Shown piece by piece: positions 16,178-40,473 of a DNA stretch of 44,370 nt. Under the pieces are notes generated by a model that was not told the DNA's origin, did not search any database, and saw nothing but the letters and a program-made list of their open reading frames with translations. Source of the DNA: a virus; IMG/VR virus record IMGVR_UViG_3300032223_001186, positions 1 through 44,370 of that record, one strand, 5' to 3'. Position 1 is the first letter of the stretch. Each line of letters begins with the position of its first letter. Position numbers and translations under genes: made by a program.

Positions 16178-16208
16178 GCCCACCAACGATCCCCGGAACG
16201 TCCTAAAG

Positions 16209-16245
16209 CCCCATTGGCCCTGAAAGCTGATGGGGTTTTTTGCTT
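16209..16245 (+). terminator. Rho-independent terminator after the 15944 gene
   Basis: CCCCAT (16209-16214) pairs with ATGGGG (16230-16235), followed by TTTTTTGCTTTT. It lies 32 nt after the plus-strand stop. The remaining gap (16246-16328) contains no gene that I can support. Confidence 0.82.
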
Positions 16246-16328
16246 TTGTGGTACATCACCAGATAACATCCGCACTGCCACCACATCAGCCATTCCCGCA
16301 CGAAAATCTTGTTTTGACCGTCAATTTT

Positions 16329-24528: not shown

Positions 24529-25896
24529 CTATATCGGTGATATTTCGTAAGGTCGCCCGAACTGGCGCACCTGAGTCTGTTCGTCTTCATCGATCAGAAG
24601 CTCTGTGACGGCCCAGACTAGCGCGTCCATGCGATCCGGCGAAGCCTCGTTCCCTTGTGGCGTCCAGCCGCACATCTGGTCTTCCAATTCGTCATACGTG
24701 CCGACGTGATGCACTCTGCCACGCTCGTAGAGACCAGCAACAGGCTCTGCTCGGATGTATTTTCCGCGAGACGCCCGGACGGCCCGAAAGTTCGCGTTTG
24801 GATCTTGAGCATAGATATTCGCCGCAACCAGATCCCCGCCGTTATTGACTTCGGCAACGATGCAATCCGCCCGCCGCGCATAATAGGCCGCCAGAGCGAT
24901 CCTCGCCCACCCCGCCGCCGATTGCTTGCAGGATAAATCCGCCATGATGAGCACATGCGCGGTATCGGTGAGAGCGGCAACGATGATGCCGGTCTCGTCG
25001 GACTCCGCGTTGTGTGATACTGCCGGATCAATCGCCACCACTATCCGCACCAGCCGATCCATCCGCACGTCGTTCCACTGGATGCGCGTGGCGTCGATAC
25101 CCTGCCGCGTCCAGAGGGCGCCCGGAACGTCGTCGAGTATTTCCGCATTGATCTCTTGCCGGCCGAGGCGGGTTCCGCGGTACGGGTCGATGACACTCCG
25201 GACAAACTCACCGCTCAGGTTAAGCCGGTTTTCGTCGCTGGTGCCTCGTGTGATAACCGTGCGCGGATTGGCGATGATGCTCTTGATTACCTTCGTCGGC
25301 TTCGGCGTCGTGGTGATGATCCCCTGCAGGTCCGGAGATGGCAGCCGGAAACCAAACATCACCTGATCCCAGGCTTCCTGCTCATACGCACAGGCGCAAA
25401 GCTCATCAAACCAGAACTTCGTAAATTGCTTGCCGCGGAGTCGCTCAGGCTCCGACGCCGGAACCGCTATACCAGTGGCCCCGGACTTGAATTGCAACAG
25501 CCCGCGTTGAGCGCTCCAGGTCGGCCGCTCCGATGGCGGGAACACTGACAGCACGCCAGAAGGTCCCTCTACCATCGTGTCGCGCACGTCTGACGCTGTC
25601 GGGCCAATCAGCAAAATGCGCGCGTCAGGATCGGCCGCCCATTGCCGAACTGATTCCGCCCCGACGCGAGTCTTCCCGAAGCCGCGTCCCGCCAGTAGCA
25701 GCCAGTAGAGCCAGTCTTTCCGGTCCATCGCCGCGCCCGGTGTCCCCGGCATCAACTGCGATGGCCGAGCGTGCCAGCTCCAGTCCCACTCTATTGATAG
25801 CGCGACCTCAGGCGGGATCGCTGCCAGTATCGCCGCTCTCTCTGAGTCTGGCAGTAATGCCAGCGATTCGAGTTTCGAGCGATTCCTTTGCTGCAT
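24529..25896 (-). CDS. terL: Terminase large subunit
   Basis: A 455-residue protein with ATPase and nuclease parts. The Walker A sequence LLAGRGFGKTRVGAE centres on Lys75, Walker B is KFWFDELCA with GIITTTPKP (coupling motif) after it, and the RNase-H-like nuclease has VAIDPAVS, IIVAALT and the final acid DRMDALVWA. Terminase cuts concatemeric DNA and packages it into the prohead through the portal. It lies after terS with an 89-nt overlap, a marked coupling. The coding end abuts the promoter region of the glycosylation cassette. Phylogeny of this protein would be the best clue to related phages and to the headful or cohesive-end strategy. Confidence 0.95.
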   Translation of the reverse strand: MQQRNRSKLESLALLPDSERAAILAAIPPEVALSIEWDWSWHARPSQLMPGTPGAAMDRKDWLYWLLLAGRGFGKTRVGAESVRQWAADPDARILLIGPTASDVRDTMVEGPSGVLSVFPPSERPTWSAQRGLLQFKSGATGIAVPASEPERLRGKQFTKFWFDELCACAYEQEAWDQVMFGFRLPSPDLQGIITTTPKPTKVIKSIIANPRTVITRGTSDENRLNLSGEFVRSVIDPYRGTRLGRQEINAEILDDVPGALWTRQGIDATRIQWNDVRMDRLVRIVVAIDPAVSHNAESDETGIIVAALTDTAHVLIMADLSCKQSAAGWARIALAAYYARRADCIVAEVNNGGDLVAANIYAQDPNANFRAVRASRGKYIRAEPVAGLYERGRVHHVGTYDELEDQMCGWTPQGNEASPDRMDALVWAVTELLIDEDEQTQVRQFGRPYEISPI

Positions 25897-26278
25897 TTAT
25901 CTCCATTTGCACCGGCGCGCCGCCCGGTCCGCTGATCTCAGTGGCCACCCGGTCACCGTATTTATCCGGCCGCATCTTACTCAGCAGCCATTTTCGCGCA
26001 TCAACTGCCACCCGGCGGCCAGCAGGGTCCAGGCTCACATCGTCAGCGATGGCGATGGTTTCCTCAGCAATGGCGTCGAGTCCGAGTCTACGCGCGTGCG
26101 CATACCGTTGAGCGAAGCCGCCATCTACCCCGACGCTGGAATCGCACCATTGGACTACAGCGGAGGCATCCGGCATGTTCTCAGATCGGCAGATTGCGCG
26201 GAGTGTTTCCCCTGCTGCCAGTCTGGTCAGTATCTCGTTTTCGATCTCATCCGACCTTCGGACGGGTTGTTTGGCCAT
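25808..26278 (-). CDS. terS: Terminase small subunit
   Basis: A 156-residue protein with an N-terminal helix-turn-helix-like region (EILTRLAAGETLRAICRS) and then ARKWLLSKMRPDKYGDRV, a signature common to Sf6-like terminase small subunits ('~AR~w~lsk~~P~~YGdk'). It should recognise the packaging site and recruit the large subunit. It overlaps terL by 89 nt. TACTAT lies 6 nt upstream of the ATG with no Shine-Dalgarno sequence. One half of the inverted repeat described at 26295-26350 lies in the promoter spacer, which suggests control by a repressor. Confidence 0.88.
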   Translation of the reverse strand: MAKQPVRRSDEIENEILTRLAAGETLRAICRSENMPDASAVVQWCDSSVGVDGGFAQRYAHARRLGLDAIAEETIAIADDVSLDPAGRRVAVDARKWLLSKMRPDKYGDRVATEISGPGGAPVQMEINAAKESLETRIAGITARLRESGDTGSDPA

Positions 26279-26428
26279 ACGCCGATAGTATGCCGTACTG
26301 CGGTATTTTTCGCAAACTTTAACTTTGCGCTTGCAATAAATCCGCAGTACTGATATTCTGGTTTTGTCAGGCAGGACCGGCGACCACCGGGCCAGCCGGG
26401 ATAAGGCTATAGGAGGCCGAAAACGATT
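26279..26428. promoter_or_regulatory. Divergent control region between terS and the early plus-strand unit
   Basis: Minus promoter: TACTAT (26290-26285) 6 nt before the terS ATG. Plus promoter: TTGCAA (26331-26336), 17-bp spacer, TATTCT (26354-26359) with an extended -10 TG. The inverted repeat GTACTGCGG (26295-26303)/CCGCAGTAC (26342-26350) puts a half-site in each promoter spacer. Inside it CGCAAA/TTTGCG (26311-26316/26324-26329) forms a second inverted repeat nearly on the same centre. A weak CCGGC/GCCGG hairpin lies in the leader at 26377-26399, and AGGAGG is at 26411-26416. Confidence 0.65.
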
Positions 26429-27068: not shown

Positions 27069-27268
27069 TGCGCCAGAAGATGATGATTCGCGTGGTGTAT
27101 GATCCGCCTCCGGTTCCGACGCGAGACATGGATTGGCGCGCGTATGACGATGACGCCGAAGGCGAACAGTTCTTTGGTGCCACAGCAGCCGAAGCACTTC
27201 AGGCTCTGGCGGAGCATCTGGAGTCTGTCGAAGCGCGGAACGAACTCAGGAAGGCGGCCCGCGCGTGA
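27068..27268 (+). CDS. Small acidic protein before the helicase
   Basis: A 66-residue protein starting MRQKMMIRVVYDPPPVPTRD, with a beta strand first, then an acidic segment with Trp and Tyr, and a helical C-terminal half (ATAAEALQALAEHLE). This plan, and the pair 'W.A~d......~~G~tp~eAl~~L~e~l', recalls small HicB-like or RHH-partner folds but is too weak for a call. It overlaps the helicase gene by 4 nt. Confidence 0.58.
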   Translation: MRQKMMIRVVYDPPPVPTRDMDWRAYDDDAEGEQFFGATAAEALQALAEHLESVEARNELRKAARA

Positions 27269-29295
27269 TCTTCCCCGTTCACCGCGACGGCATCCGCTGG
27301 ATCGTCACAATCCCGTATCCTCAGAGAAACATCGCGAAGGATGCGGGATTTCGCTGGTGCCCACAGAATCGGCACTGGTACACCACCCGCGAAGACGTGG
27401 CGAAACTGCTTATGGACCCTGCCGCTGCCGAGGCAAAGCGTGACGAATTCGCCCGGATCGGTGCCGAGCGGAAAGCACTGATTGAGGAATCCCGCGCCGC
27501 CTCTGTCGATATTGAACTACCGGCCCCGCATGGCCTGGAGTACCTGCCTTTCCAGCGTGCCGGTATCGCTACCGCACTGAAGCGCGGAAACGTCCTTTTT
27601 GGCGACGATATGGGATTAGGAAAAACTATCCAGGTGATAGGTATGATCAACGCCCGGGAGGATGTTCGTCGAGTCCTGATCGTCTGCCCCGCGACACTGA
27701 AGCAGAACTGGCAGCGTGAACTGAACAAATGGCTGGTACGGAAGTTCCGCATCGGGATTGCCGAGGGTCAGAAGTGGCCCGGTGGATACGCCGATATCAC
27801 GATCATCAACTTCGACATCCTCGAAAAGCATGCTTATCACGTGCAAGGCGAGGTGTGGGATCTGGTAGCTATTGATGAGGCTCACTACCTGAAGAACCGA
27901 GACGCGAAACGAACCCGCGCCGTTTTCGGCGTTGACTCCTACACTGCGAAGCGGAAAGACATACCGGAGTCTCCCGGCGTCCGCGGCCGCCTGCAGATCG
28001 GCATGACCGGCACCCCGATACCTAACCGCCCGAGCGAGGGTTTCGGGCTGTTTCACTGGCTGGCCCCGAATCACGAGTGTTTCAAGAGCTTCTACGTCTA
28101 CGCGAAAAAGTTTACCGGGAGTTTCGCTTACCCGGGCGCGGGATACGACCAGAACGGCGCGACAAACTTGGACGAATTGCAGGCTGCGCTCCGAGGGTCG
28201 ATCATGATCCGGCGAACAAAAGAGCAGGTCTTGAAGGAATTGCCGGCGAAACGTCGCGTGGTTATTGAACTTGAGGCGGAATCGGCGTCTGACGCGGTCG
28301 AAGACGAACGAGAGGCGGCAGAGTCCCACGAGGAAGAACTCGACCGCCTACGCGCCGCTGTGGAGCTTGCAAAGGCGTCTTCAGAGTCGGCGTACAACGA
28401 CGCAGTAGCGGCGCTGAAAAAAGGCGCATCGGTTGCGTTCACCGAGATGTCCCGACTTCGGCACGAAACAGCGATGGCGACACTGCCGCACGCGGTTGAG
28501 CATGTCCTGACCGCGCTGCGTGCTGACGACTCGCACAAGGTCGTCGTGTTCTGCCATCACGGAGACGTCGCCGTTGGAATGCTGTCAGCACTGGCTGAGG
28601 CTGGTATCGGCACCGCGTCAATCACACAGAAGACGCCGATCATGGATCGTCAGGCAGAATCAGATCGATTCCAGACGGACCCGGACTGTCGTGTGTTCGT
28701 CGGAGGAATCCAGTCTGCCGGTGTCGGTATCACCCTCACGGCCGCGTGGCATGTCGTGTTCGTAGAACTGGATTGGGTGCCCGGAAACATGAGCCAAGCG
28801 GAAGACCGGTGCAACCGGATCGGCCAGCGGAACTCCGTGCTCTGTGAGCATCTGGTGATTCAGGGCTCAATCGCGGCAACAATGGCGAAACGGCTGGTGG
28901 CGAAGCAGAACGTCATTGATTCAGCACTGGACTGTGAACACCCGGAACGTCTGACGGTCGAACAGCGGGAGATGATGGACGCTCCGATAGTCCCCGGAAG
29001 GTCGGAAGCTGCAACGCAGGACACACCGCGGACGAAGTACGCCAAGATCGCGGAGACGCTGACACCGGCCCAGATCGCCGCCGTTCACCAGGCCTTGCGG
29101 ATGCTGGCGGATTTCGACTGCGACCATGCGAAGGTTTTGAACGGTATCGGGTTTAGCCGGATCGACGGCATGATCGGACATTCGCTGGCCGATTGCGGCC
29201 GCCTCACGCCGAAACAGGCTGCGTTGGGTCAGACACTGGTGCGGAAGTACCGGAAGCAGGTTCCAGAGTCGCTACTGACTCAATGCGGGATATGA
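27265..29295 (+). CDS. SNF2-type DNA helicase/translocase with DUF5710-like N-terminus
   Basis: A 676-residue protein. Residues 1-45 resemble a DUF5710-type domain (IPYPQRNIAKDAGFRWCP, then WYTT). The helicase core starts with a Q-like PFQRAG, motif I LFGDDMGLGKT (Lys120), motif Ia LIVCPATLKQNW, motif II LVAIDEAHYLKN (DEAH 204-207), motif III MTGTPIPNRP, and ends with VFVGGIQSAGVGITLTAA (motif V) and QAEDRCNRIGQ (motif VI). A long coiled-coil insertion lies between the two RecA-like lobes (about residues 340-410). SNF2-family proteins move along double-stranded DNA or strip proteins off it. In phages they are found among replication and recombination genes. A short C-terminal helical domain follows. 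It is the last gene of the early plus unit. Confidence 0.92.
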   Translation: MIFPVHRDGIRWIVTIPYPQRNIAKDAGFRWCPQNRHWYTTREDVAKLLMDPAAAEAKRDEFARIGAERKALIEESRAASVDIELPAPHGLEYLPFQRAGIATALKRGNVLFGDDMGLGKTIQVIGMINAREDVRRVLIVCPATLKQNWQRELNKWLVRKFRIGIAEGQKWPGGYADITIINFDILEKHAYHVQGEVWDLVAIDEAHYLKNRDAKRTRAVFGVDSYTAKRKDIPESPGVRGRLQIGMTGTPIPNRPSEGFGLFHWLAPNHECFKSFYVYAKKFTGSFAYPGAGYDQNGATNLDELQAALRGSIMIRRTKEQVLKELPAKRRVVIELEAESASDAVEDEREAAESHEEELDRLRAAVELAKASSESAYNDAVAALKKGASVAFTEMSRLRHETAMATLPHAVEHVLTALRADDSHKVVVFCHHGDVAVGMLSALAEAGIGTASITQKTPIMDRQAESDRFQTDPDCRVFVGGIQSAGVGITLTAAWHVVFVELDWVPGNMSQAEDRCNRIGQRNSVLCEHLVIQGSIAATMAKRLVAKQNVIDSALDCEHPERLTVEQREMMDAPIVPGRSEAATQDTPRTKYAKIAETLTPAQIAAVHQALRMLADFDCDHAKVLNGIGFSRIDGMIGHSLADCGRLTPKQAALGQTLVRKYRKQVPESLLTQCGI

Positions 29296-30687
29296 TCCAC
29301 CGGATCACCGGAACCGCCATGCTGTTGCCTAGAGCCTTGTAGCGCGGCCCATCCGCTGCTTTTTCCATCGCAGTGTAATCGTCAGGAAAACCCTGAAGTC
29401 GTTCGCATTCTCGCGGGGTGAATCGGCGCACGCCAAACGTTTGCGCGATCTGCGTCATCACGGCGCCGACACCCATCCCGCTGCGTCCCGCCGGCAACGT
29501 CGGAGCCAAGACCGGAATCACATGCCCCGCCGCTACCGCCTGATCGTTCACGCCCGACTGGCCGTGTCCTTTCGGCGTGTGCTGACTTGGCAACGCCCCA
29601 ACCACCAGCGTCTCCGTCTCGTAGTCAATCCGCCCCATGCCACCAGCATTCAGGCAGTGGGATGTTTCGACGGTGGCGACGTAACACTGCTGTTTCGCGC
29701 CCGGTTCAGCCGCCAGTGCTCCAACGATCTGGCCGTCACCGTCGAACATGCGGACCTCATCGCGAGTGTTCTGGACGAACGCCACCCCATGCTGCTTCCC
29801 GCGCTGAAGCGTGAACATCGGATCTCCCGGCTGTCCGATACCGTCAGAGCATCGCACGTCGTCGGTACTGACTCCGGTTCGTGCGCCGGGTTCAAGGATG
29901 CGGATTGGCGACATCGCCAGCATTCCCACCTGATTGCGAATCGCGCCGTCTTTCGCCCGTGCATCCATCGTGCAGGCTACGTCAACGTCTCGCCCCCCCC
30001 CAGGCCCGACCTCGAAACCGATTCCAGTGCGTTCCGCAACATCGGCGGCAGTTTTTTCCCCCGCTTCTCTGCGCGGCGGAGAATGCCGCGCGGCACGCCT
30101 TCGCACTCAAAAAGTATTTTGCGGGGATCGGACACGTTTCGAGGACATGCGACAACGAACACACGCTTGCGTCGTTGGGCCAGTCCGAAATATTGAGCAT
30201 CGAGGACACGCCAAGCGGCAGCGCGTCGGGGTCCAGACACCATGCCTGCGTTTGTCCATCCGCCGACCGGTACGATGGCTTCATCTGCTCCAACCAGCGC
30301 AGCGAGGAATGACCCGAAGGCGTTGTCTTTTGTGCTGAGAACTCCGGGGACGTTTTCCCACAAGACAGTATCAGGCTCAATTGCATCTACCACCTCCACG
30401 AATCGTAACGTCAGGTTGCCCCGCGCATCTTCGAGACTACGCCGATTTCCGGCCATTGAGAACGCTTGGCACGGTGTCCCGGCCACCAGCAAATTCAAGT
30501 GACCGAATGACCGCGCCCGGTCAATGAAATCCGTCGCCGTGATGTCCCCCAGATTGACGCTTTCCGGGTGACGGTGCGCCAGAACGCGAGATGGGAACTT
30601 CTCCACCTCCGCAGACCAAAGCCATTGCGTCCCCGGCATTGCAGTTTCAGGCGCTCCTATTCCGCTGCACATCGTTGCGCCGGTCAT
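29204..30687 (-). CDS. DNA cytosine-5 methyltransferase, frame broken at a G9 tract
   Basis: Two adjacent frames together form one C5-methyltransferase. The first (30687-29977) has motif I (ATMCSGIGAPE), motif IV with the catalytic Cys (GTPCQAFSMAG), motif VI WENVPG and motif VIII QRRKRVFVVA, and ends soon after the G run. The second carries a variable region with ETSHCLNAGGMGRIDYETE and then motifs IX-X (RFTPRECERLQGFPDDYT and KALGNSMAVPVIRWI). A -1 shift at the run (or a tract of 7 or 10 G) would give a 494-residue protein. Options are programmed slippage, a phase-variable tract, a sequencing or assembly error, or a true pseudogene. The intact protein would methylate the phage genome against host restriction. 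It is coupled to the upstream zinc-ribbon gene (ATGA). Confidence 0.85.
29993..30001 (-). other. Homopolymer of nine G in the methyltransferase gene
   Basis: The minus strand reads CTG GGG GGG GGC in the first frame. The heptamer G GGG GGG lies in phase as a possible -1 slippery site, and a change to 7 or 10 G would also join the two halves. Confidence 0.9.
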
Positions 30688-30872
30688 ACCATTTTCCGTT
30701 TCCGCCGTGCCGACTGCCGCCGATCAGTTACCCGTCCCTGCGCTTGTCGGCACCGATCCGCCCCGCAAGTGATCTGGAGTTTATTGACCTTCACGAACGG
30801 CTTATTGCAGTGCGGACACGTCGCCGCCCCGAAGTCGCGCCGCATTGTCATCCCTGGTGAGTAATAGAGCAT
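30684..30872 (-). CDS. Small zinc-ribbon protein
   Basis: A 62-residue protein starting MLYYSPGMTMRRDFGAATC, with CPHCNKPF and later CGADRCRQAQ, a likely four-Cys zinc site, and a strongly basic C-terminus (RRQSARRKRKMV). It begins in the stop of the DnaA-like gene (TGATG) and ends in the start of the methyltransferase (ATGA). It is probably a nucleic-acid-binding protein. The family is not recognised. Confidence 0.65.
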   Translation of the reverse strand: MLYYSPGMTMRRDFGAATCPHCNKPFVKVNKLQITCGADRCRQAQGRVTDRRQSARRKRKMV

Positions 30873-31246
30873 CACGCAACATCCCCGTATGCCCGCGTCA
30901 AAAACGCGATCTGTTCCGCTTGCTGGTGAATGATTGCAGCCTGTCGCCGGATAACTTCCAGCATCGCTTTCCGGCTCGTCAGACGCGCCGTGGCATCGCC
31001 GGTATCCATTCCTTTCAGGTGGTGCATTACGGTCGTGTGGTGGCAGTTGAACGCCTCCCCGATCTGCGGATACGACATGCCGAGCTCGGTACGGCATCGA
31101 TGCATTGCTTTCCGCTTCGCCGCCATCAGGTCATGACTGGATCCGGAAAACACCATCTTGTGCCGCGTCAGATTGTGTTCAGCCGCCACCTGCTCCTGAA
31201 TCATCTGCGCTTTTTTCATCCACACAGAGTGCTTTTCCGGCGTCAT
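30872..31246 (-). CDS. DnaA domain IV-like DNA-binding protein
   Basis: A 124-residue protein. Residues about 40-78 read LMAAKRKAMHRCRTELGMSY then PQIGEAFNCHHTTVMHHLK. This matches DnaA domain IV, the 'sy.eIg~.Fg.rdHtTV~ha..k' helix-turn-helix that binds DnaA boxes. The AAA+ ATPase is absent. The N-terminus and C-terminus are helical; the latter (AIIHQQAEQIAFLTRAYG) may form a coiled coil. It may mark the phage replication origin, direct host replication proteins, or regulate transcription. It overlaps the HNH gene by 4 nt. Confidence 0.82.
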   Translation of the reverse strand: MTPEKHSVWMKKAQMIQEQVAAEHNLTRHKMVFSGSSHDLMAAKRKAMHRCRTELGMSYPQIGEAFNCHHTTVMHHLKGMDTGDATARLTSRKAMLEVIRRQAAIIHQQAEQIAFLTRAYGDVA

Positions 31247-31590
31247 TGCTTCCCACCTCCAACGCCCTCAAATATCCCCTGATAGAACGTGAACAGGTCC
31301 GCCCGGTTGATACCGTGATACTCCCAGAATCCGCGCCCCATGACATGCTGAGAATCGGAGCGCGTCCGGTGATGGCCGGCGCACAGCGGAATCGCTTGTT
31401 CGTCTTTCGACTTCTGCCCCAGTCCGCGGTCCCCGACGTGCGCCGCTTCGACGTTCCCCTCGCAGTCTCTGGCGGCCGCCAGAACGCACGGCCACTGTCG
31501 GATGAACTCAAGGTATACGGGATTCTGCGCGACCCCGCCAGCGCGGCGGATTGCTTTCAGGCTACGCTTTGCAATCGTGGTGCGCCTCAT
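31243..31590 (-). CDS. HNH-type nuclease (DUF968-like)
   Basis: A 115-residue protein with VEAAHVGDRGLGQKSKDEQA followed by IPLCAGHHRTRSDSQH. The pattern '~~~aHv...g.g.Ksdd...~PLC~~HH......g' belongs to DUF968/HNH-like nucleases of phages, which are often placed with recombination genes. Conserved His and Cys residues for a beta-beta-alpha metal site are present (H in AAHV, HH after LC). A role in branch processing, packaging or restriction-like cutting is possible. It is coupled to both neighbours (ATGA). Confidence 0.8.
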   Translation of the reverse strand: MRRTTIAKRSLKAIRRAGGVAQNPVYLEFIRQWPCVLAAARDCEGNVEAAHVGDRGLGQKSKDEQAIPLCAGHHRTRSDSQHVMGRGFWEYHGINRADLFTFYQGIFEGVGGGKQ

Positions 31591-34277
31591 TGTGCGTCAC
31601 CCGTCAGGTCGAACAAAGACGGCATGTTAACCTTCGTTTCCGCGGCCTTCAGATATTGCACCGAATCCCAGAAGTAGCCTGGATTGAGTTCCGCGCTTCG
31701 CCCCTGACGCCCGAGCAATACCGCCCGATACGGGACTGTGCCGAGGCCGCCGAACGGATCATAAACCAGTTCGCCGTGGTTCGTGTGCTGCGTAATCGTC
31801 CGGTCAGCGATATCGAACTGCATCGGGCACAGGTGACCTTCTTTGCCGGCCGCCGCTTGCATCGTGTTCATGCCGAGCATCCGCGTCACGTCGGACCAAA
31901 CCTCGTCTGACCACGACGGAGGCTGCAGGAGCATGAATGTCACCGGGAGAATGCCGGTTGCTTCCAGGTACTCACCGATGCGGACGTGGTTCTCGTAGTC
32001 ATAGACGTTCGTTGTGTAGTAGTCGCGGAACAGGCGGAAGATTTCGCCGTGGTCCAGTCCTTTCAGGTGCTCCGGCGTCAGTTGCGTGTTGCCACTGGAC
32101 CGGGTGAAGCCATGAGCGTCAGTCTGCCAGCGCGCGCGGCTGTAGTGGCCCTTCCGTACCGGCAGAGACGTCGGAAGATTGCGTTCGAATGGAATAACCT
32201 TGGGAGCATTGCCGGTCGTATCGCTGAAAACAAATCCGCATGTCGGACACTCGCCCGGTTCGCCTTCCAGTTCCTTGTGTGAACAGACGCAATCAGGCTT
32301 GGACTTCAAAACCGGTTCGTCGGCATAGGCGTTGCTGGAATCTGACGGCGGCTTCCGGAACAGCAGCAGATATTCCGGCATCCCGACGCCCATCTTTGTG
32401 CCGTCTTTGCACTGTTCGGACCATCCGAGCCTGTACGTCTGGTTGTTCTCGCGAACAACGTCGGTGACGATGGTTTTCATGCCGAGGTAGGCGAAACCAT
32501 GCTTTGTGTAGTGCATGATTGTGTCGCAGTGGAACGGGTACGCCGTCTGGAATCCGAGCCCGTTGATACCGCCCGGAGTGATCCGGTCTTTGACGTGAAT
32601 CGCCGCAATCCGGCCCGGTTTCAGCACTCGCAGGAGTTCCGGCGTCAGATAGTCCATCTGCTGGAAGAAGTGCGCTGGCGTGTCGGTATGGCCGAAATCA
32701 TTGTATGACGGCGAATATTCGTACTGGTTACCGAACGGGATGCTGGTCAATACCAGGTGTACGCTGTTCGTCTCCATCGCCCGCGTCTCCAGCACCGTAT
32801 CATTCAGCGCCAGCGTCCACCCTTCGCCGGACACCTCCACGCGCTTGACGCCAGTGCTCCGCGCCATCGCGGCCGCCATCGCCTGGTGGCTCAATCCGAA
32901 CTCCCGAATGATCTGTGTCATGTTGTCGCACAACTCCTTATGCTGTTTCCACTTCCGCTCTAAAGACTTCCGAACCTCCCGCTCCGCAGACGTGTAGATA
33001 AGGTCCACACGAACCGGCTTCGTCTGCAGGAACCGCTGAAGTCGGTGAACCGCCTGAATGAAATCGTTGAACTTGAACCCGATGCCGAGGAATATGGCCC
33101 AGTTGCAGTGACGCTGGAAGTTGCAGCCGGAGCCGCAAAGCACTGGCTTCGTTGCCAGTTCACGAACCGAGCCTTCCGAAAACCCTGCAATAATCTCTTC
33201 CCGCGTCTTCAAGTCCTGCGTTCCGAACACGCTGAGGACGTCCGGTATCGCGGTCTCGATGGCTTCGCGTTCGCGCTCCAGATCGTGCCAGATGATCCGA
33301 TGCGCGTCCGGGTCCAGCGCCCGGAGTTCCATCATCTTTGCGATGCGTTGCGGCAGACTGTCGCGCTTCTCCCGGCTGCTGTCGACGATACCGAAGGCTG
33401 CATTCTTGAACATGCGCGCCTGTCCGTCGCGTTCTTCCCCGGCGTTGCTGTGATCGGTTTCGACTTCATGCCAGTGAATGTCTAGATCCGGCAGGATGTA
33501 GCCATCGTCGGAGTATCCGAGGTCTGACGGCCGCTGAACGAAGATAGCCCACGATGACACCCACAGCCAGAACTCGCGCTCTTTGTGCGGATGAATCGTC
33601 AGGACGTCTGCTTTCGTGCTGTCGCGTTTGAAGAACCGTGTCTTCGCCTCTCCAACATCCATCACGTCCAGAAATGCGGCATAAGCCAGCAGTTCGATGT
33701 ATTCGTTGGGTGACGGTGTAGCGGTCGCAACGAACTTGTAGCGCATGCCTTCGAACACCCGCATGAATTCCCGAAAGGTCTTCGTACCGCCGAACGACCG
33801 TAGTACGCTGGCTTCGTCCAGACTGGCCCCGGCGAACTTCTTCGGATCAATCTTGCCGTCTCGGATCGTTTCGTAGTTCGTCAGGTAGACCCCGGTATCG
33901 CCGCATTCGTCCAAACTTCGAACGAACTTCAGGCCGATGCCGAGCTTGAGCGCGTCCACCGCAAACTCATGACGAACGCCGAGCGGCGCGACGATCAGGA
34001 AACGTCCCCCTGTAAAGGCTGCGATACATCGTGCAATCTCAAGCTGGATAAAGGTCTTGCCGAGGCCGAAGCTGGCGAAGATGGCGCGGCGGCCGCCAGA
34101 TACCGCCCATCGTGTGATGGCATCCTGGTGAGGCTTGAGCATGTCAGAGACCTGAATCTCCTGCATGTCCAGCCCGTCCGGTATCGCGACACACGCCTTT
34201 GCCGCGAGGAATGCGTCGTAGTCCTGTTGTGATGCGTCGTTGTTGCGCTCTAAAAAGCGCCGTGCTTTGTGGTCCAT
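31587..34277 (-). CDS. SF2 helicase fused to a DNA (adenine/cytosine-N4) methyltransferase
   Basis: An 896-residue protein. The N-terminal half has a SF2/SNF2-like helicase: motif I FASFGLGKTFIQLE (Lys74-Thr75), a DEAS motif II in FAGASLDEASVLR, motif III-like VATATPSPN and a motif VI-like AVHRLQRFLQ. From about residue 480 comes an amino-methyltransferase of the beta type: VLTSIPFGNQYEY fills the place of the catalytic DPPY/SPPY motif, and near the C-terminus LVYDPFGGLGTVPYRAVLLG gives the SAM-binding motif I. A zinc ribbon (CVCSHK...CPTCGFVF) lies between. Such helicase-methyltransferase proteins resemble restriction-related machines. SIPF in place of SPPY is worth noting. A ribosome-binding site (AGGAGAGG, 7 nt) precedes the ATG. 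Confidence 0.88.
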   Translation of the reverse strand: MDHKARRFLERNNDASQQDYDAFLAAKACVAIPDGLDMQEIQVSDMLKPHQDAITRWAVSGGRRAIFASFGLGKTFIQLEIARCIAAFTGGRFLIVAPLGVRHEFAVDALKLGIGLKFVRSLDECGDTGVYLTNYETIRDGKIDPKKFAGASLDEASVLRSFGGTKTFREFMRVFEGMRYKFVATATPSPNEYIELLAYAAFLDVMDVGEAKTRFFKRDSTKADVLTIHPHKEREFWLWVSSWAIFVQRPSDLGYSDDGYILPDLDIHWHEVETDHSNAGEERDGQARMFKNAAFGIVDSSREKRDSLPQRIAKMMELRALDPDAHRIIWHDLEREREAIETAIPDVLSVFGTQDLKTREEIIAGFSEGSVRELATKPVLCGSGCNFQRHCNWAIFLGIGFKFNDFIQAVHRLQRFLQTKPVRVDLIYTSAEREVRKSLERKWKQHKELCDNMTQIIREFGLSHQAMAAAMARSTGVKRVEVSGEGWTLALNDTVLETRAMETNSVHLVLTSIPFGNQYEYSPSYNDFGHTDTPAHFFQQMDYLTPELLRVLKPGRIAAIHVKDRITPGGINGLGFQTAYPFHCDTIMHYTKHGFAYLGMKTIVTDVVRENNQTYRLGWSEQCKDGTKMGVGMPEYLLLFRKPPSDSSNAYADEPVLKSKPDCVCSHKELEGEPGECPTCGFVFSDTTGNAPKVIPFERNLPTSLPVRKGHYSRARWQTDAHGFTRSSGNTQLTPEHLKGLDHGEIFRLFRDYYTTNVYDYENHVRIGEYLEATGILPVTFMLLQPPSWSDEVWSDVTRMLGMNTMQAAAGKEGHLCPMQFDIADRTITQHTNHGELVYDPFGGLGTVPYRAVLLGRQGRSAELNPGYFWDSVQYLKAAETKVNMPSLFDLTGDAQ

Positions 34278-34323
34278 TTAGCCGCCTCTCCTATAAGGCG
34301 TCGGAGTGCTGGGAGTGAGGGTA

Positions 34324-34339
34324 GGAGTCCTTCGACTCC
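34324..34339. other. Stable small hairpin between operons
   Basis: GGAGTC-CTTC-GACTCC (6-bp stem, 4-nt loop; extendable to GGGAGT/ACTCCC with neighbours) lies in the 67-nt gap before the helicase-methyltransferase. There is no T run, so it is not a usual terminator. It may slow transcription or protect an mRNA end. GGAGTG repeats lie beside it. Confidence 0.5.
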
Positions 34340-34344
34340 CAATA

Positions 34345-34593
34345 TCACTCCGAAGCGCTGGTACCCATGCCTGAGTGTCCCGCGCCGTCTCTGTCAGTAT
34401 GCACCGATACCGGGTGCTCGGTCAACATCAAAAGTTCTTCCATTAGAGCATCGGTCGCCGCCATGCGCAATCCGAACTGGTACGCAGTCGGCGGGTTCTG
34501 AAGCGATCCTGATGCCAGCAGTAACGTCGCAAACCGGACTTGTTCATCCCGGCATCGCTGAAGGTCAGCTTTGACGATCCATTTGCGGTTCAT
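34345..34593 (-). CDS. Small protein of the replication region
   Basis: An 82-residue protein starting MNRKWIVKADLQRCRDEQVR, mainly helical (LLLASGSLQNPPTAYQFGLR and ATDALMEELLMLTEH), with a loose polar C-terminus. Its ATG overlaps the preceding stop (ATGA); the frame continues far upstream but inside the neighbouring gene. I do not recognise the family. Confidence 0.6.
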   Translation of the reverse strand: MNRKWIVKADLQRCRDEQVRFATLLLASGSLQNPPTAYQFGLRMAATDALMEELLMLTEHPVSVHTDRDGAGHSGMGTSASE

Positions 34594-35036
34594 GCAAACA
34601 CCGATCCGCGAGTCTGCCGTCGGATCTCCGCTGCTGCAAACTCCTGTTGATAGTGGCGCATCACTGACGGCACAATTACCGGCCCCACGTTCGCTGGTGG
34701 CGGTCCATCGTGGCGACACTTCCATGCTGCCGAAATTCCGATTTCGTTCTCGATGATGATGAACCCCGATCCGTTGCACCATGAGCAATCCCGCGACGTT
34801 GCCGTGATGGTTTCGTCGTCGGGCGTCTGCTGGCATATCTCAACGATTGCCTGGACACTGGGATATGTCCGCTCCTGTTCGCGCAGTGCTTTCACTACCC
34901 GCGCCGCATGGCCGATGCTGGCTGCGTTCTTCCGTAGCGCATCCGTTCGGGCCTTTAAGGCTTCCTGGCTATCTGGTAGCCCTGGAAGGCCGCTAAATCC
35001 CTGCATGGCCTCGCGTGCTGCTTTCAGATCGATCAT
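34590..35036 (-). CDS. Replication-region protein with a zinc-knuckle-like motif
   Basis: A 148-residue protein with a helical N-terminal half (VVKALREQERTYPSVQAIVE), then CSWCNGSGFIIIENEIG and another Cys in WKCRHDG. 'C..CnGsG' with a nearby CxH is a DnaJ-like half-knuckle often seen in phage replication-loader neighbours. It ends in a helix (SVMRHYQQEFAAAEIRRQ). A role as helicase loader or accessory to initiation is possible from its location after the O-like gene; it is not shown by motifs. Both ends overlap neighbours (ATGA). Confidence 0.62.
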   Translation of the reverse strand: MIDLKAAREAMQGFSGLPGLPDSQEALKARTDALRKNAASIGHAARVVKALREQERTYPSVQAIVEICQQTPDDETITATSRDCSWCNGSGFIIIENEIGISAAWKCRHDGPPPANVGPVIVPSVMRHYQQEFAAAEIRRQTRGSVFA

Positions 35037-35236
35037 CGGTTCACCTTCGCCGCGTCAATGACCGCATCGCGCAAGGTTGAGCCCTCACCGGCGATTGCGG
35101 GATTCAGCGTAGTCGGCGTTACCTCCCAGTTCGTCTCGTCGTCTTCGTCCAGATCTGCTATCGCCGCCCATTTGCCGTATGCTTTCGCTTCGGCCCGATG
35201 TGATTCCATCCAGTCCAGAATTTCCGTATCGCTCAT
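35033..35236 (-). CDS. Small acidic protein
   Basis: A 67-residue protein starting MSDTEILDWMESHRAEAKAY, with a strongly acidic middle (ADLDEDDETNWEV). It overlaps its neighbours by 4 nt on each side. No family is recognised; the short, acidic, coupled nature suggests a small accessory or regulatory protein. Confidence 0.55.
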   Translation of the reverse strand: MSDTEILDWMESHRAEAKAYGKWAAIADLDEDDETNWEVTPTTLNPAIAGEGSTLRDAVIDAAKVNR

Positions 35237-35760
35237 CGTCCACCCTCCCGCTTCGCCCGCTCGATATCCGCTGCCGTGATCCGGTTCGTTCCCGTAACTC
35301 GAAATACCGGAATACTTGGCAATCGTACCGGCTTCGTTCGTTCCATCGCCTTCGCCGCCGCCAGAGCCGCAATGACTGGCCGGATACTGACCGCCGCAGT
35401 CAAGTCTTCAGCCGTGTCCCGTGGCCCCGCAATCTGGCGCACGGTCGCCCCCCCCAGTTGCAGAGGCTCCGCTGATTTCTCGCTTGGTATCCCGTCGTTG
35501 AACCGTGGAAGTTGCGAGTACGCTTCGACGCCATCCGCCGGTCGGAACTTTGAGCAAAACACCGCCCGCATCTCTCGCGGCCCTTCCCACTCGTTCCATA
35601 GTTCCAGACACCGATTCACCAGCCAGACGATATCCGCGTTTGTATTCGCCATTTTGCACGCCATGAGCACTATCTCTGCCCGCGCCGTCTGATCTGACGG
35701 GAAGAACTTCAGCACGGATAACCGCGCCATATCTCGTGTCGCCTGTTGCGTGTCGATCAT
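35233..35760 (-). CDS. Unknown protein downstream of the O-like gene
   Basis: A 175-residue protein. The N-terminal 90 residues are helical with conserved-looking VWLVNRCLELWNEWEGPREM and VFCSKFRPADGVEAYSQLP. Similar 'W.~~p.~mR~lfc.~~~P~dg' sequences stand next to replication genes in other phages, but I cannot give the family a name with confidence. The C-terminal half is proline- and alanine-rich and polar. It is coupled to the genes on both sides (ATGA). A helicase-loader or primosome accessory role is a guess. Confidence 0.6.
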   Translation of the reverse strand: MIDTQQATRDMARLSVLKFFPSDQTARAEIVLMACKMANTNADIVWLVNRCLELWNEWEGPREMRAVFCSKFRPADGVEAYSQLPRFNDGIPSEKSAEPLQLGGATVRQIAGPRDTAEDLTAAVSIRPVIAALAAAKAMERTKPVRLPSIPVFRVTGTNRITAADIERAKREGGR

Positions 35761-36578
35761 AACCGCCCTTCCCGATACCGCTGCTCAAATTCCATCGTCA
35801 CCGATTCCACAAACCCGACCTTCGCCGCGCCATGCCCGTTCCCGTTCGTCAGCATGCTGACGAACGGCAGAGGCGCTTCGTCCTCCCACCTTCGCCCGTT
35901 GATCCACGTAGCCGGGTGTGGCCGCTTGTCCGGAGGTCTGCTGGTCAGTTCCGGCAGTTGCAGCGTCAGCGCCCGAAGAGCCGCCGCCCGAAGCTCTGGA
36001 GTTTTCAGCACGGCCCGCGCCGCTTTCAAAGCCGCGACCTTCGCCTCCCTCCGAGGGTAGACCGGCCAGAACTTTTGGGAGAACCAACCCTCAACCGGAT
36101 CGGACACAGGCACTGCGGCTGGTTTTGCAGCAGGGGGTGTATTTCTGTTCTCTTCTATTCCCTTCCCTTCCCTTCCCTTCAATGCAGGTTTTTCCGCATG
36201 TGGGTGCGGGATTTCGGCAACGCCCTGCATGTTTTTGGCAACCCGCTGATTTTCAAAGACTTCCAGCCACTCCAAAGATATCAACCGTGGAATCACCTCT
36301 TCGAATAGCGCAACGGGTAACCGGGAGATTCTGGCGAGTGATTGCGTCGTTCCCGCACCACCCTGCGGGATTTCGCCGCGCTTTGGTTGCTTCGATGCGA
36401 TCTCCAGAATGGCAAGCCAGGCCCCCAGATGCGCCGCCCCGTTCGGATGGTCCACCAGTTCCAAGTAGCCGAGATTCGACATATCGTTCGGCACCGGCAC
36501 CCAGTCGAGACGCTTCAATTCTCGGGTCCGGTTGTTCTCGTAACGGTCGGCCCACTTTGCGACTCGGTAAGCGATCAT
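35757..36578 (-). CDS. O-like replication initiation protein
   Basis: A 273-residue protein of two parts. The N-terminal part (about residues 1-120) looks like a winged helix (GAWLAILEIASKQPKRGEIP and ISRLPVALFEEVIPRLISLE), as in DnaD/O-like replication proteins. After a basic, charged linker with the repeat KGREGKG (near 132), the C-terminal part has FWPVYPRREAKVAALKAA and later PHPATWINGRRWEDE. 'fW~.YPr...k.aA~ka......hpatWi~~rrWed' is a recurring ending of phage replication proteins. It would bind the origin and load helicase. The linker coding sequence holds a G-rich repeat (36158-36180). Confidence 0.8.
   Translation of the reverse strand: MIAYRVAKWADRYENNRTRELKRLDWVPVPNDMSNLGYLELVDHPNGAAHLGAWLAILEIASKQPKRGEIPQGGAGTTQSLARISRLPVALFEEVIPRLISLEWLEVFENQRVAKNMQGVAEIPHPHAEKPALKGREGKGIEENRNTPPAAKPAAVPVSDPVEGWFSQKFWPVYPRREAKVAALKAARAVLKTPELRAAALRALTLQLPELTSRPPDKRPHPATWINGRRWEDEAPLPFVSMLTNGNGHGAAKVGFVESVTMEFEQRYREGRL
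36158..36180 (-). repeat. Pentanucleotide repeat / G-quadruplex motif in the initiation gene
   Basis: TTCCC four times plus TTC on the plus strand. On the minus (coding) strand this gives GGG-AA-GGG-AA-GGG-AA-GGG (36177-36160), which fits the G3+N1-7 quadruplex rule. A change by one 5-bp unit would shift the frame of the initiation gene. Confidence 0.8.
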
Positions 36579-36769
36579 GGCCGATTACCAATCGGCGACT
36601 TCGCGCCTTTAACGATGTCGTATCCGACTGCGGATATTAGCTGCCCCAAGTCTCCGATGAACTGTTTTCGGAAATGAACGGGAGCCCACTTCTGGACAAA
36701 CGCGATCAGTTCTTTTTCGCTGCGTAATGCGTCGGTTGTTGGCGCAGATTGCGCCGATGAATGTTCCAT
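36575..36769 (-). CDS. Small protein before the O-like gene
   Basis: A 64-residue protein starting MEHSSAQSAPTTDALRSEKE with a helical region (LIAFVQKWAPVHFRKQFIGD) and a C-terminal GDLGQLISAVGYDIV. ATG 36769 follows GGGAACGAAC, and a TTGAAA-18-TATAGT promoter lies about 110 nt upstream, so it should be the first gene of a transcription unit. The frame is open further upstream but without a clear start. No family is recognised. Confidence 0.6.
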   Translation of the reverse strand: MEHSSAQSAPTTDALRSEKELIAFVQKWAPVHFRKQFIGDLGQLISAVGYDIVKGAKSPIGNRP

Positions 36770-36878
36770 GTTCGTTCCCTCGTTCCCAAAGTTTTGGAGG
36801 ATGGCCCCGGCCAGCAGGGGAACGACTGCCGACCGGGTTTGCGCCAAAATCCGCGTCGGGGATCAGTCCGACGAACCA

Positions 36879-36908
36879 ACTATACACCATTCGCCAAGAG
36901 TGTTTCAA
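36879..36908 (-). promoter_or_regulatory. Promoter before the O-like unit
   Basis: TTGAAA (36908-36903), 18-bp spacer, TATAGT (36884-36879), each 5 of 6 against the sigma-70 consensus. It overlaps the end of the DUF1064 gene, whose TAG lies in the -10. The 36770-36878 leader contains AAATCCGCG (36847-36855), close to the half-site discussed at 26342 and 40484. Confidence 0.6.
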
Positions 36909-37314
36909 GACTCCACTCCTCAAAAATCAGATCCGGGTACCGCTGCCTGAATAACTTTGCCTTCAGTTTGTAGGCTTCCGTCTTGAATCCCTTGAAGTCC
37001 ACCACAATCGTCTGCCCGTCGCGGATAAACCGGAAGTCCGGCACGTACTGCATCGCCCGCACCTTGCGCCCTGTGGCGTCAATGTAACCATCCATGAGCG
37101 TGTACCGCGGTTGCCGCTCCAGATTTGAGATTGCCCCAGCCTTCTCCCACAGCATGAGCAGCGATCCAGCCCGCGCTTCCCCGGCAGAGTCGAACGTCAC
37201 CCCGTTGATGGTTTTCTTCACCGCGTTGTACTTGTGCGCCTTCCTTTGGCCCGAGCCGGCAAGTGATGAGATATTGGCCCGGGCGCAAAGCTCTTGGTAT
37301 TGCTTCTCAGTCAT
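36880..37314 (-). CDS. DUF1064 nuclease (RecU/Holliday junction resolvase-like)
   Basis: A 144-residue protein with KYNAVKKTINGVTFDSAGEA, then LERQPRYTL, YVPDFRFIRDGQTIVVDFKG and TEAYKLKAKLFRQRYP. This series ('Kyna.~~~~dG~~FdS~~Ea', 'Q~~~~L', 'Y.~DF~~~~~g~~vvvD~KG~~T~~~~lK~~l') is DUF1064. The conserved Glu, Asp and Asp-x-Lys fit a PD-(D/E)xK nuclease fold, suggested to resolve or cut branched DNA. It abuts the previous gene, whose stop shares a base with its ATG. Confidence 0.87.
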   Translation of the reverse strand: MTEKQYQELCARANISSLAGSGQRKAHKYNAVKKTINGVTFDSAGEARAGSLLMLWEKAGAISNLERQPRYTLMDGYIDATGRKVRAMQYVPDFRFIRDGQTIVVDFKGFKTEAYKLKAKLFRQRYPDLIFEEWSLETLLANGV

Positions 37315-37946
37315 CAGGCTTTCTTTGGACGACCGCGACCTCGCTTCATAGTCGCGGCAGGTTCGTCGCCAACGGGTTCCGGCGTCTCTTCGATACCATC
37401 GGATTCTTCCGTCGCCTCGTAGTGCTCCATGACGCCAACAACCTGCTCAATATCCATCTGGTCCGATTCTTCCGGCGTATCGGTTGCCGGCAGTTCCTCC
37501 TGAACCGCTGACGGATCGTAGCTGATGCTGACGTTGGATGTCGGCACCGCCCGCATGTAGTTCGTCAGCATCCCGGCGCCGTTCTCGTCGGCAAACGCTA
37601 CAGTGCAACTCACGTCCGTCTTCTTGATCCCGGCTTTCTTCGAGTCCTTCCCTTTGGCCGCCTTCCGAATGACGGCGAAGTTCTCCATATAGCCGTGACA
37701 CTCCAACTGAAACGCCCGCCCGAACTGGGTTTCGTCGGTCGGCTTAAACTCGATGGTCCGGACCTCAACACGATTGTGAGGCGCATCCGGCGACCAGGTG
37801 CCGGTCATTTCCGGCAGTTCCTGCGCCCATCCGAGAGCCTCAGCGATTCTCGATGAGAACGGGAACTTCAGTGTCAGCGTCTGGTCGGACGCGGTGATGG
37901 TGACCTTCTTCAGCGTCACCTGTTTGATGTTCAGTTTTTTTGGCAT
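37314..37946 (-). CDS. Unknown recombination-region protein with AT-hook-like tail
   Basis: A 210-residue protein. Residues 1-150 are beta-rich (LNIKQVTLKKVTITASDQTL, then a second strand-rich half with CTVAFADENGAGML). A strongly acidic linker follows, and the end is MKRGRGRPKKA, a classic AT-hook core (GRGRP flanked by Lys/Arg), which binds the minor groove of AT-rich DNA. Its place between Gp157-like and DUF1064 genes suggests DNA metabolism. It might be a ssDNA-binding or annealing-type protein, but no OB-fold motif is certain. AGGAG lies 12 nt before the ATG. Confidence 0.65.
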   Translation of the reverse strand: MPKKLNIKQVTLKKVTITASDQTLTLKFPFSSRIAEALGWAQELPEMTGTWSPDAPHNRVEVRTIEFKPTDETQFGRAFQLECHGYMENFAVIRKAAKGKDSKKAGIKKTDVSCTVAFADENGAGMLTNYMRAVPTSNVSISYDPSAVQEELPATDTPEESDQMDIEQVVGVMEHYEATEESDGIEETPEPVGDEPAATMKRGRGRPKKA

Positions 37947-37961
37947 ACCGTTTCACTTCTC

Positions 37962-38696
37962 CTATTTGATTTCTACGTGTGCGCCCCGTGGCGCAAGTGT
38001 TGCCCCTGGAACTCCGTTCTTACCGGAACCGCCGCAAGATGTGCATTTCTCCGTGCATTCCGTATTGGCGCTAAACAGAACGCCAGTCGCGTTGCAAGTT
38101 TTGCACGGTTCCGCCAGTGCATTGCCGATGGCTGTCAGGTTCGGACTCCATCGCGGCGTCATCGGCGCGGCGTCCATTTTTATAAGCATCGGCAACACGC
38201 GCTCGTAGGCGTCTGCTGAGATCGTCATCGTTACCAACTGAAACTCGTTCGGTATCAGAGCCTCGTCGGTAATCACGACGGGTTGCCGGCCACCGTTACC
38301 CTTGAGGCTGATACTTCCGATTTTCCCTTCGAGTTTGCGAGGCTTCCCGGCTCTCCACTCCATCTCTTCCAGGGTGATCTGAATGGCGTTCTTAAGTACG
38401 GTCAGTTGCCGGTCGAAGACTTGGGCCCGGTCCTGCATGGCCTTCGCTTCGGCCTTCGCAGCATCCCGGATCATTTCCAGATGCTTCCACCAGCCGCGGA
38501 CCCCGTCCACCTTCTTCACTTCGGCTTTAATATATTCTGCAATCGCGAGATCTACTTCGGTCAACATCACGGCATAAGCCGTTTGCTGGTCATCCCCGAG
38601 CGTTTCTATTGGTGGCGGATTCGTCAGCAGTTCTTCCCGCTGCTCAAACAGGTCTGCTAGTCCCTGTTCTATGTTCCAGAGAGACATGCTGCTCAT
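37962..38696 (-). CDS. Siphovirus Gp157-like protein with zinc knuckle
   Basis: A 244-residue protein starting MSSMSLWNIEQGLADLFEQR. The pattern 'sLw~i.~~~~~L~~~~e......e.......~ie~K~~~~~~~i' with a long helical middle (VRGWWKHLEMIRDAAKAEAK) and EEMEWRAGKPRKLEGKIGSI matches phage Gp157, often found near recombination genes and linked to resistance to phage infection in Streptococcus. The C-terminal 45 residues carry CKTCNATGV and CTSCGGSG, a DnaJ-like zinc knuckle not usual in this family. The start overlaps the stop of the previous gene (ATGA). Confidence 0.82.
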   Translation of the reverse strand: MSSMSLWNIEQGLADLFEQREELLTNPPPIETLGDDQQTAYAVMLTEVDLAIAEYIKAEVKKVDGVRGWWKHLEMIRDAAKAEAKAMQDRAQVFDRQLTVLKNAIQITLEEMEWRAGKPRKLEGKIGSISLKGNGGRQPVVITDEALIPNEFQLVTMTISADAYERVLPMLIKMDAAPMTPRWSPNLTAIGNALAEPCKTCNATGVLFSANTECTEKCTSCGGSGKNGVPGATLAPRGAHVEIK

Positions 38697-38899
38697 CGTG
38701 ATGCCTCGTTCGAGGACTGAACCACGTCGATCAATTGCAACATAGAAGACGGCAGCGGTTCCGGCCGCCGTCCTTCCCGCCGCTTCGTCTGCCGGTGCAG
38801 GAGTTCGCAGGTGTCGATCATCTGTTCCTGCGTTTCGGCGTCCCAGTCTGCGAACTGGTCCAGCCATTCGTCTTTCGTTGACTTGCGTGGTCGCGCCAT
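38693..38899 (-). CDS. Small unknown protein before Gp157
   Basis: A 68-residue protein starting MARPRKSTKDEWLDQFADWD with charged helices (ETQEQMIDTCELLHRQTKRR) and a polar end. It has a good ribosome-binding site (AGGAG, 5 nt before ATG). It overlaps the Gp157-like gene by 4 nt. No family is recognised. Confidence 0.62.
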   Translation of the reverse strand: MARPRKSTKDEWLDQFADWDAETQEQMIDTCELLHRQTKRREGRRPEPLPSSMLQLIDVVQSSNEASR

Positions 38900-38907
38900 C
38901 GTTTCTC

Positions 38908-39546
38908 CTATTTCTCAAACCGCTTCAGAGCCGCGTGCAGGTCACACACGCAAGCCTTGTAATCTTCGACGGTTGGATTCTTTTTCTTTTCAAACCCGTC
39001 TGCGATCCTCTCGTATTCGTGTGTCGCCGTCGTGCCGCACGCTGTCAGCCGTTCGAACAGTGTCGTGAAGATATCCCCCGCAACTGCCGGTTGCCGGTCA
39101 ATCCGAATCAGCCAGTTCTCCAATTCCGAAGATCCATGTTTCGGCATGCAGACCGGCGCGGCCGTCCGCTGGTGGTCTTCGTATTCCTGACCCGCTGCGG
39201 AGTTGGCATCGTACTTCGACCATCCGCCGTTCGGCAGCGGTTTCCCGTCTTCCCGCCGTTTTGGAAACAGGCTTCCACCTTCCTGCGTCTGCCCAAAAGA
39301 GAACCGCGCATTGCATCCCATGCAGACCAGTTCGTAGTAATCGAACGACTTGCCCGCATTCTTGCCGGACTTCGCTACCGACGTTCTCAGCCGGTAGTGG
39401 ATGTCGTCTGATTGGCAGCATCCGCATCGGTTCTCCGCGTCGAAGACTTCCTGAATTGCCGCCAGTTCACCGAATAACTCCTTCGGTGTCGCGCCTTCCA
39501 CGGCAAACTGCAGCCGCCCGTTACTGCTGGTATATGTTGCCTTCAT
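38908..39546 (-). CDS. Zinc-finger-containing phage protein of unknown role
   Basis: A 212-residue protein. The first part reads FAVEGATPKELFGELAAIQE, then CGCCQSDDIHYRLRTSVAKS and YYELVCMGCNARFSFGQTQE, followed by GGSLFPKRR. The two Cys pairs (CxxC at GCCQ and CMGC) should bind zinc. 'R.......g..~yye~~C..C.a~l~~Gq.k.gg~LfpKr' is a recurring pattern in phage proteins near SSB, RecT or Gp157 genes, with unknown biochemical role. The C-terminal half is helical and charged. It overlaps the preceding gene by 4 nt. Confidence 0.72.
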   Translation of the reverse strand: MKATYTSSNGRLQFAVEGATPKELFGELAAIQEVFDAENRCGCCQSDDIHYRLRTSVAKSGKNAGKSFDYYELVCMGCNARFSFGQTQEGGSLFPKRREDGKPLPNGGWSKYDANSAAGQEYEDHQRTAAPVCMPKHGSSELENWLIRIDRQPAVAGDIFTTLFERLTACGTTATHEYERIADGFEKKKNPTVEDYKACVCDLHAALKRFEK

Positions 39547-39815
39547 CGTCCTTCCCTCTCCTGCCTTGCGGCCTGTTTCCGTTTCACATCCCGCACCGAA
39601 TCCATCACTTGGTCATAGCACCAGTCGTACAGATCGGCGCTGACGGCGTTCACTTCATCCGCCGGACACTGCGCCTTCTGCGAACAAAAGAAGTCCATGC
39701 TCTGGTAGTTTCCGAGGTTCAGTTTGAAACTGACCGAGCGGACAACTTCTACCATGCGCGTGTCCGGTTCACGTCCGGTAGCCGTGCGGCCGTCTGGACC
39801 TAAAATTTGGACCAT
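39543..39815 (-). CDS. Small unknown protein
   Basis: A 90-residue protein with a beta-rich middle (VVRSVSFKLNLGNYQSMDFF) and a helical basic C-terminus (YDQVMDSVRDVKRKQAARQE). 'sfkvnlGnye~~d~~~~~~' patterns are found in a conserved but poorly known set of phage replication-region proteins. The start ATG overlaps the preceding gene by 16 nt; its stop overlaps the next ATG (ATGA). Confidence 0.6.
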   Translation of the reverse strand: MVQILGPDGRTATGREPDTRMVEVVRSVSFKLNLGNYQSMDFFCSQKAQCPADEVNAVSADLYDWCYDQVMDSVRDVKRKQAARQEREGR

Positions 39816-40087
39816 ACGTCAGCCTCCGCGGCATGCTTCTGCCACTCACGCACGGTCAGATGTTTCGGCGCTGCCATGTCTTCCAGCGCCTGGTACACAG
39901 CCTGTTTCGTTTCGTCTGACGGAACCCGGACGCCTGCGCATTTCGCTACGCTGGCCCATTCTTCCGTGCTCATGAGCCGTGCGTTGTGTGCCGGAATCCC
40001 AACTGATGAAAGCGCCCCGACCAGCAGCGCTGCTTTCTTCTGCCGGGCGGCAAACTCGGTCAGGTGCGCGATTTGTTCCGGAGTCAT
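39800..40087 (-). CDS. Small helical protein
   Basis: A 95-residue protein starting MTPEQIAHLTEFAARQKKAA. It appears wholly helical with a central ARLMSTEEWASVAKCAGVRV. It is coupled to the RHH gene (ATGA) and overlaps the next gene by 16 nt. No family is recognised; second place after a regulator is common for small accessory proteins. Confidence 0.58.
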   Translation of the reverse strand: MTPEQIAHLTEFAARQKKAALLVGALSSVGIPAHNARLMSTEEWASVAKCAGVRVPSDETKQAVYQALEDMAAPKHLTVREWQKHAAEADVWSKF

Positions 40088-40467
40088 GCGTCCGCCTTCG
40101 GTCCGTACTGCTCAACCAGTAGCCACGCCAAGGCGGGAGCGATACCGAGCGGTTTCCGCGTTCCCTTGCGATCAAGTCCGCGCCGTTGCACTTCCGCCAC
40201 GCCACGGTCCCTCGTCTTCTGCGAGCAATAGCAAGACACCCGCTCCCACGTGTAGCCGTGGTGAGGCGTCAGCACGTCCAGTTGTTTCGGTGCCGCCTTA
40301 CCTTCGCCAAACACTTCTTCGGTCAGGTCTCGGATAATACTGCTGACGCTGCGTGACGCGGTGACCAGCTTGCGGATCGCCGTATGCGTATCGGTCGGAA
40401 TCTGTATTCTAAGTTCGCAACTTCCAAGCGCGAGCTTCGATGGTGTCTTGCTGCGTTTCTTTGCCAT
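40084..40467 (-). CDS. RHH-type regulator with C-terminal extension
   Basis: A 127-residue protein. After a basic N-terminus, residues 15-52 read CELRIQIPTDTHTAIRKLVT then ASRSVSSIIRDLTEEV: one strand and two helices, a ribbon-helix-helix DNA-binding plan. The C-terminal 70 residues contain WERVSCYCSQKTRDRGVAEV and ALAWLLVEQYG, which are not part of the RHH core. It heads the replication operon. Its promoter carries an inverted repeat (TAAATCCGC/GCGGATTTA) that shares a half-site with the terS/early region, so it may regulate itself and those promoters. The start follows a TATCCT hexamer by 6 nt. Confidence 0.65.
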   Translation of the reverse strand: MAKKRSKTPSKLALGSCELRIQIPTDTHTAIRKLVTASRSVSSIIRDLTEEVFGEGKAAPKQLDVLTPHHGYTWERVSCYCSQKTRDRGVAEVQRRGLDRKGTRKPLGIAPALAWLLVEQYGPKADA

Positions 40468-40473
40468 GACCAG

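Follow-up and report, generated by a model that had tools for sequence, protein, structure and literature searches.

Arc and Mnt of phage P22 are ribbon-helix-helix (RHH) repressors that bind operators over promoters; they have one RHH unit per chain and control ant. TraY of the F plasmid has two RHH units in tandem, but it acts in conjugation and binds oriT. Closer to the phage considered here is AvtR, a small virus-encoded regulator from Acidianus filamentous virus 6, which also has two RHH units per chain. AvtR represses its own gene and affects a neighboring promoter via dyad sites (PMC5569661; PDB:4hv0).

We propose a similar arrangement for a phage that is represented by a virus contig of 44,370 bases (the whole of this DNA is "the window"). 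The record has a direct terminal repeat of 123 bases (1-123 and 44248-44370), so it is very probably a complete phage with a circular map. Most of the structural genes run leftward from terS, which encodes an Sf6-like small terminase subunit (25808-26278, minus strand; Pfam Sf6_terminase, 2.4e-31); the replication genes point leftward as well, from 40467 on. Between 26429 and 29295 is a short early block that points rightward. In our main reading, which we give a probability of about 0.6, the 127-amino-acid protein encoded at 40084-40467 (minus strand), which probably has two RHH units per chain, binds an 11-bp operator. This operator would be roughly CCGCA-G-TGCGG and would lie within or beside the spacer of promoters of the sigma-70 type. 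By binding over its own leaderless promoter, the protein would regulate itself negatively; by binding at the early promoter (and, here, at the divergent terS promoter), it would turn those units off as it accumulates. Unlike AvtR, which has an archaeal host and oligomerizes over about 100 nt, this phage has two to four separate sites.

The original prediction described two inverted repeats and a shared 10-nt half-site. The repeats are exactly as it described them: GTACTGCGG (26295-26303) with CCGCAGTAC (26342-26350), and TAAATCCGC (40484-40492) with GCGGATTTA (40507-40515). Also, the half-site TAAATCCGCA occurs just twice in the 44,370 bases, at 26337 and 40484, each time in a promoter. The proposed third half-site at 36847 looks like chance, as the window has 7 matches with one mismatch, versus 4.9 expected. 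Nor does the exact half-site hold up as the operator. The registers of the two repeats differ, with only CCGC common to all four arms, which means that the repeats cannot just be copies of one two-fold operator. What all three promoters have in common is an 11-mer, (C/A)CGCAGT(A/G)C(T/G)G, at 26342-26352 (plus strand), 26293-26303 (minus strand), and 40489-40499 (minus strand). Judging from the sequences, the operator is likely to be this 11-bp dyad within each promoter, overlapped by the repeats.

The early promoter (26331-26359, plus strand) has TTGCAA, a 17-bp spacer, and TATTCT. Its putative operator, CCGCAGTACTG, is in the spacer, one base before TATTCT. The terS promoter (26285-26315, minus strand) has TTGCGA, followed either by CATACT (17 bp away) or by TACTAT, and contains an operator-like copy, CCGCAGTACGG. 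(A perfect copy of CCGCAGTACGG is also found in coding DNA, at 21987.) The regulator promoter has TATCCT as its -10 element (40474-40479, minus strand) and ACGCAGTGCGG, with a CGCA-G-TGCG dyad, as its putative operator. If a motif is trained on the two sites near 40 kb, then the early site ranks first among the remaining matches in the window; if it is trained on the two sites near 26 kb, then the regulator site ranks second, behind the coding copy. The best match outside of training was GCAGTGCGGATGTTAT (16263-16278, minus strand), a possible further copy that has 11 bases in common with the regulator promoter. The genes on either side of it converge, and next to it is a strong terminator (16205-16239). 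A five-copy motif that includes this site was suggestive, but we set it aside, as the relatives (described below) have nothing at that place.

The terS and regulator promoters resemble leaderless promoters in which TANNNT adjoins the open reading frame (PMC12340547). Four genes lack a Shine-Dalgarno sequence and have a -10 hexamer just ahead of the start codon: the regulator, terS, the portal gene, and the gene at 10892. The gap to the ATG is exactly 6 nt for the regulator (TATCCT) and for terS (where TACTAT is the hexamer that ends there), and it is 7 nt for the other two. Most internal genes have some match to the Shine-Dalgarno sequence. (The starts with this arrangement, at 15914, 26278, and 40467 on the minus strand and at 10892 on the plus strand, all belong to the first genes of their units.) If these promoters are leaderless, then the 11-mer would lie at about -25 to -15 for terS and about -32 to -22 for the regulator.

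Statistics from the window give a mixed picture. Across the whole window, closely spaced 9-bp inverted repeats are common (9 observed, versus 7.6 in shuffled sequences), but having such repeats in at least two of the ten intergenic regions is rare (7 of 2,000 shuffles). These two particular intergenic regions share a 10-mer in 24 of 2,000 shuffles, while in half of the shuffles some 10-mer is shared between some pair of intergenic regions. These probabilities are optimistic because we had looked before choosing the motif and the regions. With such a short motif, and with a copy in coding DNA, one might ask whether the resemblance is just chance. We consider this very improbable: in related phages, the same pair of promoters also shares a motif, and one relative (G010) has 4 motif matches in 35 kb, versus 0.1 expected, each of them one base upstream of TATnnT. 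The relatives are stronger evidence than any statistic from the window.

We found seven relatives (G007 to G013) by searching with the neighboring proteins 37314-37946 and 40513-40875. (Searches with the RHH gene by itself required exact 8-residue words and missed them.) Their nucleotide identity to the window is about 67-86% over much of 27263-44370. All seven have the regulator gene, at 58-59% identity in G007 to G011 and 37% in G012 and G013. In G007 to G011, the leaderless promoter is kept, with CTATAGT ending 6 nt before the ATG. The -10 element (TATAGT) is preceded, at a distance of one base, by a motif, CATTAGTAATG in G007 to G010 and CATCAGTGATG in G011, whose two compensating changes preserve the dyad. 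The next promoter in the relatives has the same motif, CATTAGTTATG, ahead of its -10 element. The relatives' early promoters and leaders are homologous to the window's (84-95% nucleotide identity), and at the place of CCGCAGTACTG, one base before TATTCT, they have CATYAGYTATG (as CATTAGCTATG, CATCAGTTATG, or CATCAGCTATG). We saw the motif at both the early and the regulator promoters in G008, G009, and G010; for G007 and G011 we saw it at the regulator promoters alone. In G012, the regulator promoter and the next one share CAGTASRTATG; its early promoter has CATAGCGCATG, which does not clearly match that motif. At the level of sequence, both the window and its relatives have a dyad in the promoter of the regulator as well as in other promoters of the phage.

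Within each phage, then, the early and regulator promoters appear to share a motif, one that is not the same in the window as in its relatives. Because the relatives share a different motif at the same promoters, the sharing in the window is supported, and the operator seems to have changed at both promoters in parallel. A caveat is that the window's regulator site is 9 bp upstream of the -10 element, versus 1 bp in the relatives, and that the alignment of these promoters is ambiguous: the window's site may pair with a different CAGT element. (Another difference nearby is a stretch of about 650 extra bases that seems to be a small gene and separates the homolog of 40513-40875 from the regulator. 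It is present in contigs L106, at 5375-6000, L107, and L108, and is absent from the window and from G009.)

The repeat at 40484-40515 might instead be a transcription terminator for the tail operon, in which case the repeat at 26 kb would just reflect two similar divergent promoters. The final three bases of the 40-kb repeat are the stop codon of the gene at 40513-40875, and the repeat folds at -13.5 kcal/mol (z = -2.5). But it has no run of T's, a terminator scan did not find it, it lies inside a promoter, where it overlaps the putative operator, and in the relatives we read, the pair TAAATCCGC/GCGGATTTA is absent upstream of the regulator. We consider this alternative quite unlikely. Scanning the collection with the 26-kb repeat and with AATAAATCCGCAGTACTG gave only unrelated matches, mostly inside open reading frames.

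Another alternative is that the host's RNA polymerase or a host regulator, and not a phage protein, reads the shared sequence as an element of the promoter. The motif is always just upstream of or between promoter elements, and TAAATC is conserved in the early promoters whatever the operator is. On the other hand, the 11-mer varies among the phages while the -35 element, the -10 element, and the leader stay the same: in most of the relatives, TTGCA, TAAATC, TATTCT, and 58 nt of the leader are conserved around the changed motif. A host factor would need to have changed to match, so we consider this explanation unlikely.

The early leader itself (26365-26428, plus strand) is GC-rich and contains AGGAGG. 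Over 58 nt, this leader (GTCAGGCAGGACCGGCGACCACCGGGCCAGCCGGG..AAGGCTATAGGAGGCC) is almost invariant in L116, L117, L118, and most of L127 to L138, while the flanking DNA has diverged. In G010, the leader is duplicated and precedes two genes. Possibly it serves as a conserved RNA element or as an enhancer of translation. Among contigs that share only the leader (mostly fragments), we found no match to the RHH protein.

The original prediction was that one repressor could switch the early, packaging, and replication units together. A sequence shared by the early and regulator promoters is supported, given that they share a motif in the relatives as well. For packaging, we found no detectable homolog of terS in the seven relatives. 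Opposite the early promoter, the relatives shown have a divergent late gene that is not terS and that, judging by its ParB-like start, is probably methyltransferase-like. TTGCGA is found in the divergent promoters of most of these relatives (it is kept in L117 and L118, and is TTGCCA in L116), but the spacer of this late promoter has no operator. So, the case for joint control of packaging comes from the window, where the operator-like copy suggests that the same protein may control terS. Whichever units are controlled, we infer repression rather than activation from the position of the sites. As for other phages with related terS proteins (32-49% identity), they lack a matching repeat. TerL relatives (L083 to L088) did not serve as a comparison set: four of them were tested for terS and had no match, none of the six matched the RHH protein, and there is no divergent region in the two that we read, L083 and L085. 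In the unrelated phages L027 and L030, a different inverted repeat (TTAATCGTTCG) lies about 95-165 bases upstream of terS.

The original prediction also named the protein from 40084-40467 as the best candidate for the repressor, and this remains plausible: the gene is conserved, the predicted fold is RHH-like, and the recognition strand has changed. AlphaFold predicts a strand and two helices, twice over (E15-24, H25-34, H41-53 and E72-81, H83-97, H109-121), at a low confidence (pLDDT of 59). The top three structural matches are all RHH proteins: AvtR (Z = 6.5) and two entries for the F relaxosome (PDB:9f11 and PDB:9f0z, Z = 5.5 and 5.4), although even 6.5 is below a safe level, and unrelated folds reach 5.3. 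The RHH subunit in the relaxosome entries is presumably TraY. Our searches detected no sequence relation to either AvtR or TraY, Foldseek by itself gave no significant match, and the protein had no profile match in Pfam (even at E = 10) or PHROG. We ignored weak sequence matches to lauroyl acyltransferases. Hence, we suggest only that the protein works like an RHH protein, and claim no membership in a profile family; it is probably a tandem RHH autoregulator.

Comparing the protein across phages also bears on its role as the binder. The predicted DNA-contact strand, which precedes the first helix, is among the less conserved parts between the window and its relatives, unlike helix B, which is conserved. 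The strand reads CELRIQIP in the window, CSLIVKIP in G009 to G011, and TLMTVCVP in G012. By Arc's numbering, the contact residues would be E-R-Q (positions 18, 20, and 22 in the window's protein), S-I-K, and L-T-C, respectively. That the strand and the motif vary together supports this protein as the binder, short of proof.

Another phage protein could be the binder, above all the one encoded at 30872-31246, which resembles domain IV of DnaA (Pfam Bac_DnaA_C, 9.8e-13, and a match to domain IV of Mycobacterium DnaA). The shared sequence would then be a modified DnaA box (AAATCCGCA compared to TTATCCACA), and replication would be linked to early transcription. In E. coli DnaA, R399 and D433 contact the box (PMC7561715); the aligned residues differ in the phage protein, which would lead one to expect an altered box, and the window has no standard DnaA box. 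However, the relatives' CATYAGTWATG does not resemble a DnaA box, a dyad that shows compensating changes suits a binder that is dimeric or tandem, and none of the sites adjoins the gene at 30872-31246. Overall, we view a DnaA-like binder as improbable, and the probable tandem RHH protein is still the best candidate.

A shared phage operator is ordinary in kind, and the one we propose here is unusually well supported. More tentatively, and at somewhat less than even odds, an unclassified tandem RHH regulator and the operators at the early and regulator promoters may have switched their DNA specificity together, with the variants still present in living relatives. If so, these phages would form a natural series in which to follow the joint change of a regulator and its regulon. 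They would also provide a testable master regulator and regulon for an unclassified group of phages. And since the operators differ in parallel with the recognition strand, the protein-DNA code of a tandem RHH regulator might be readable from natural variants.
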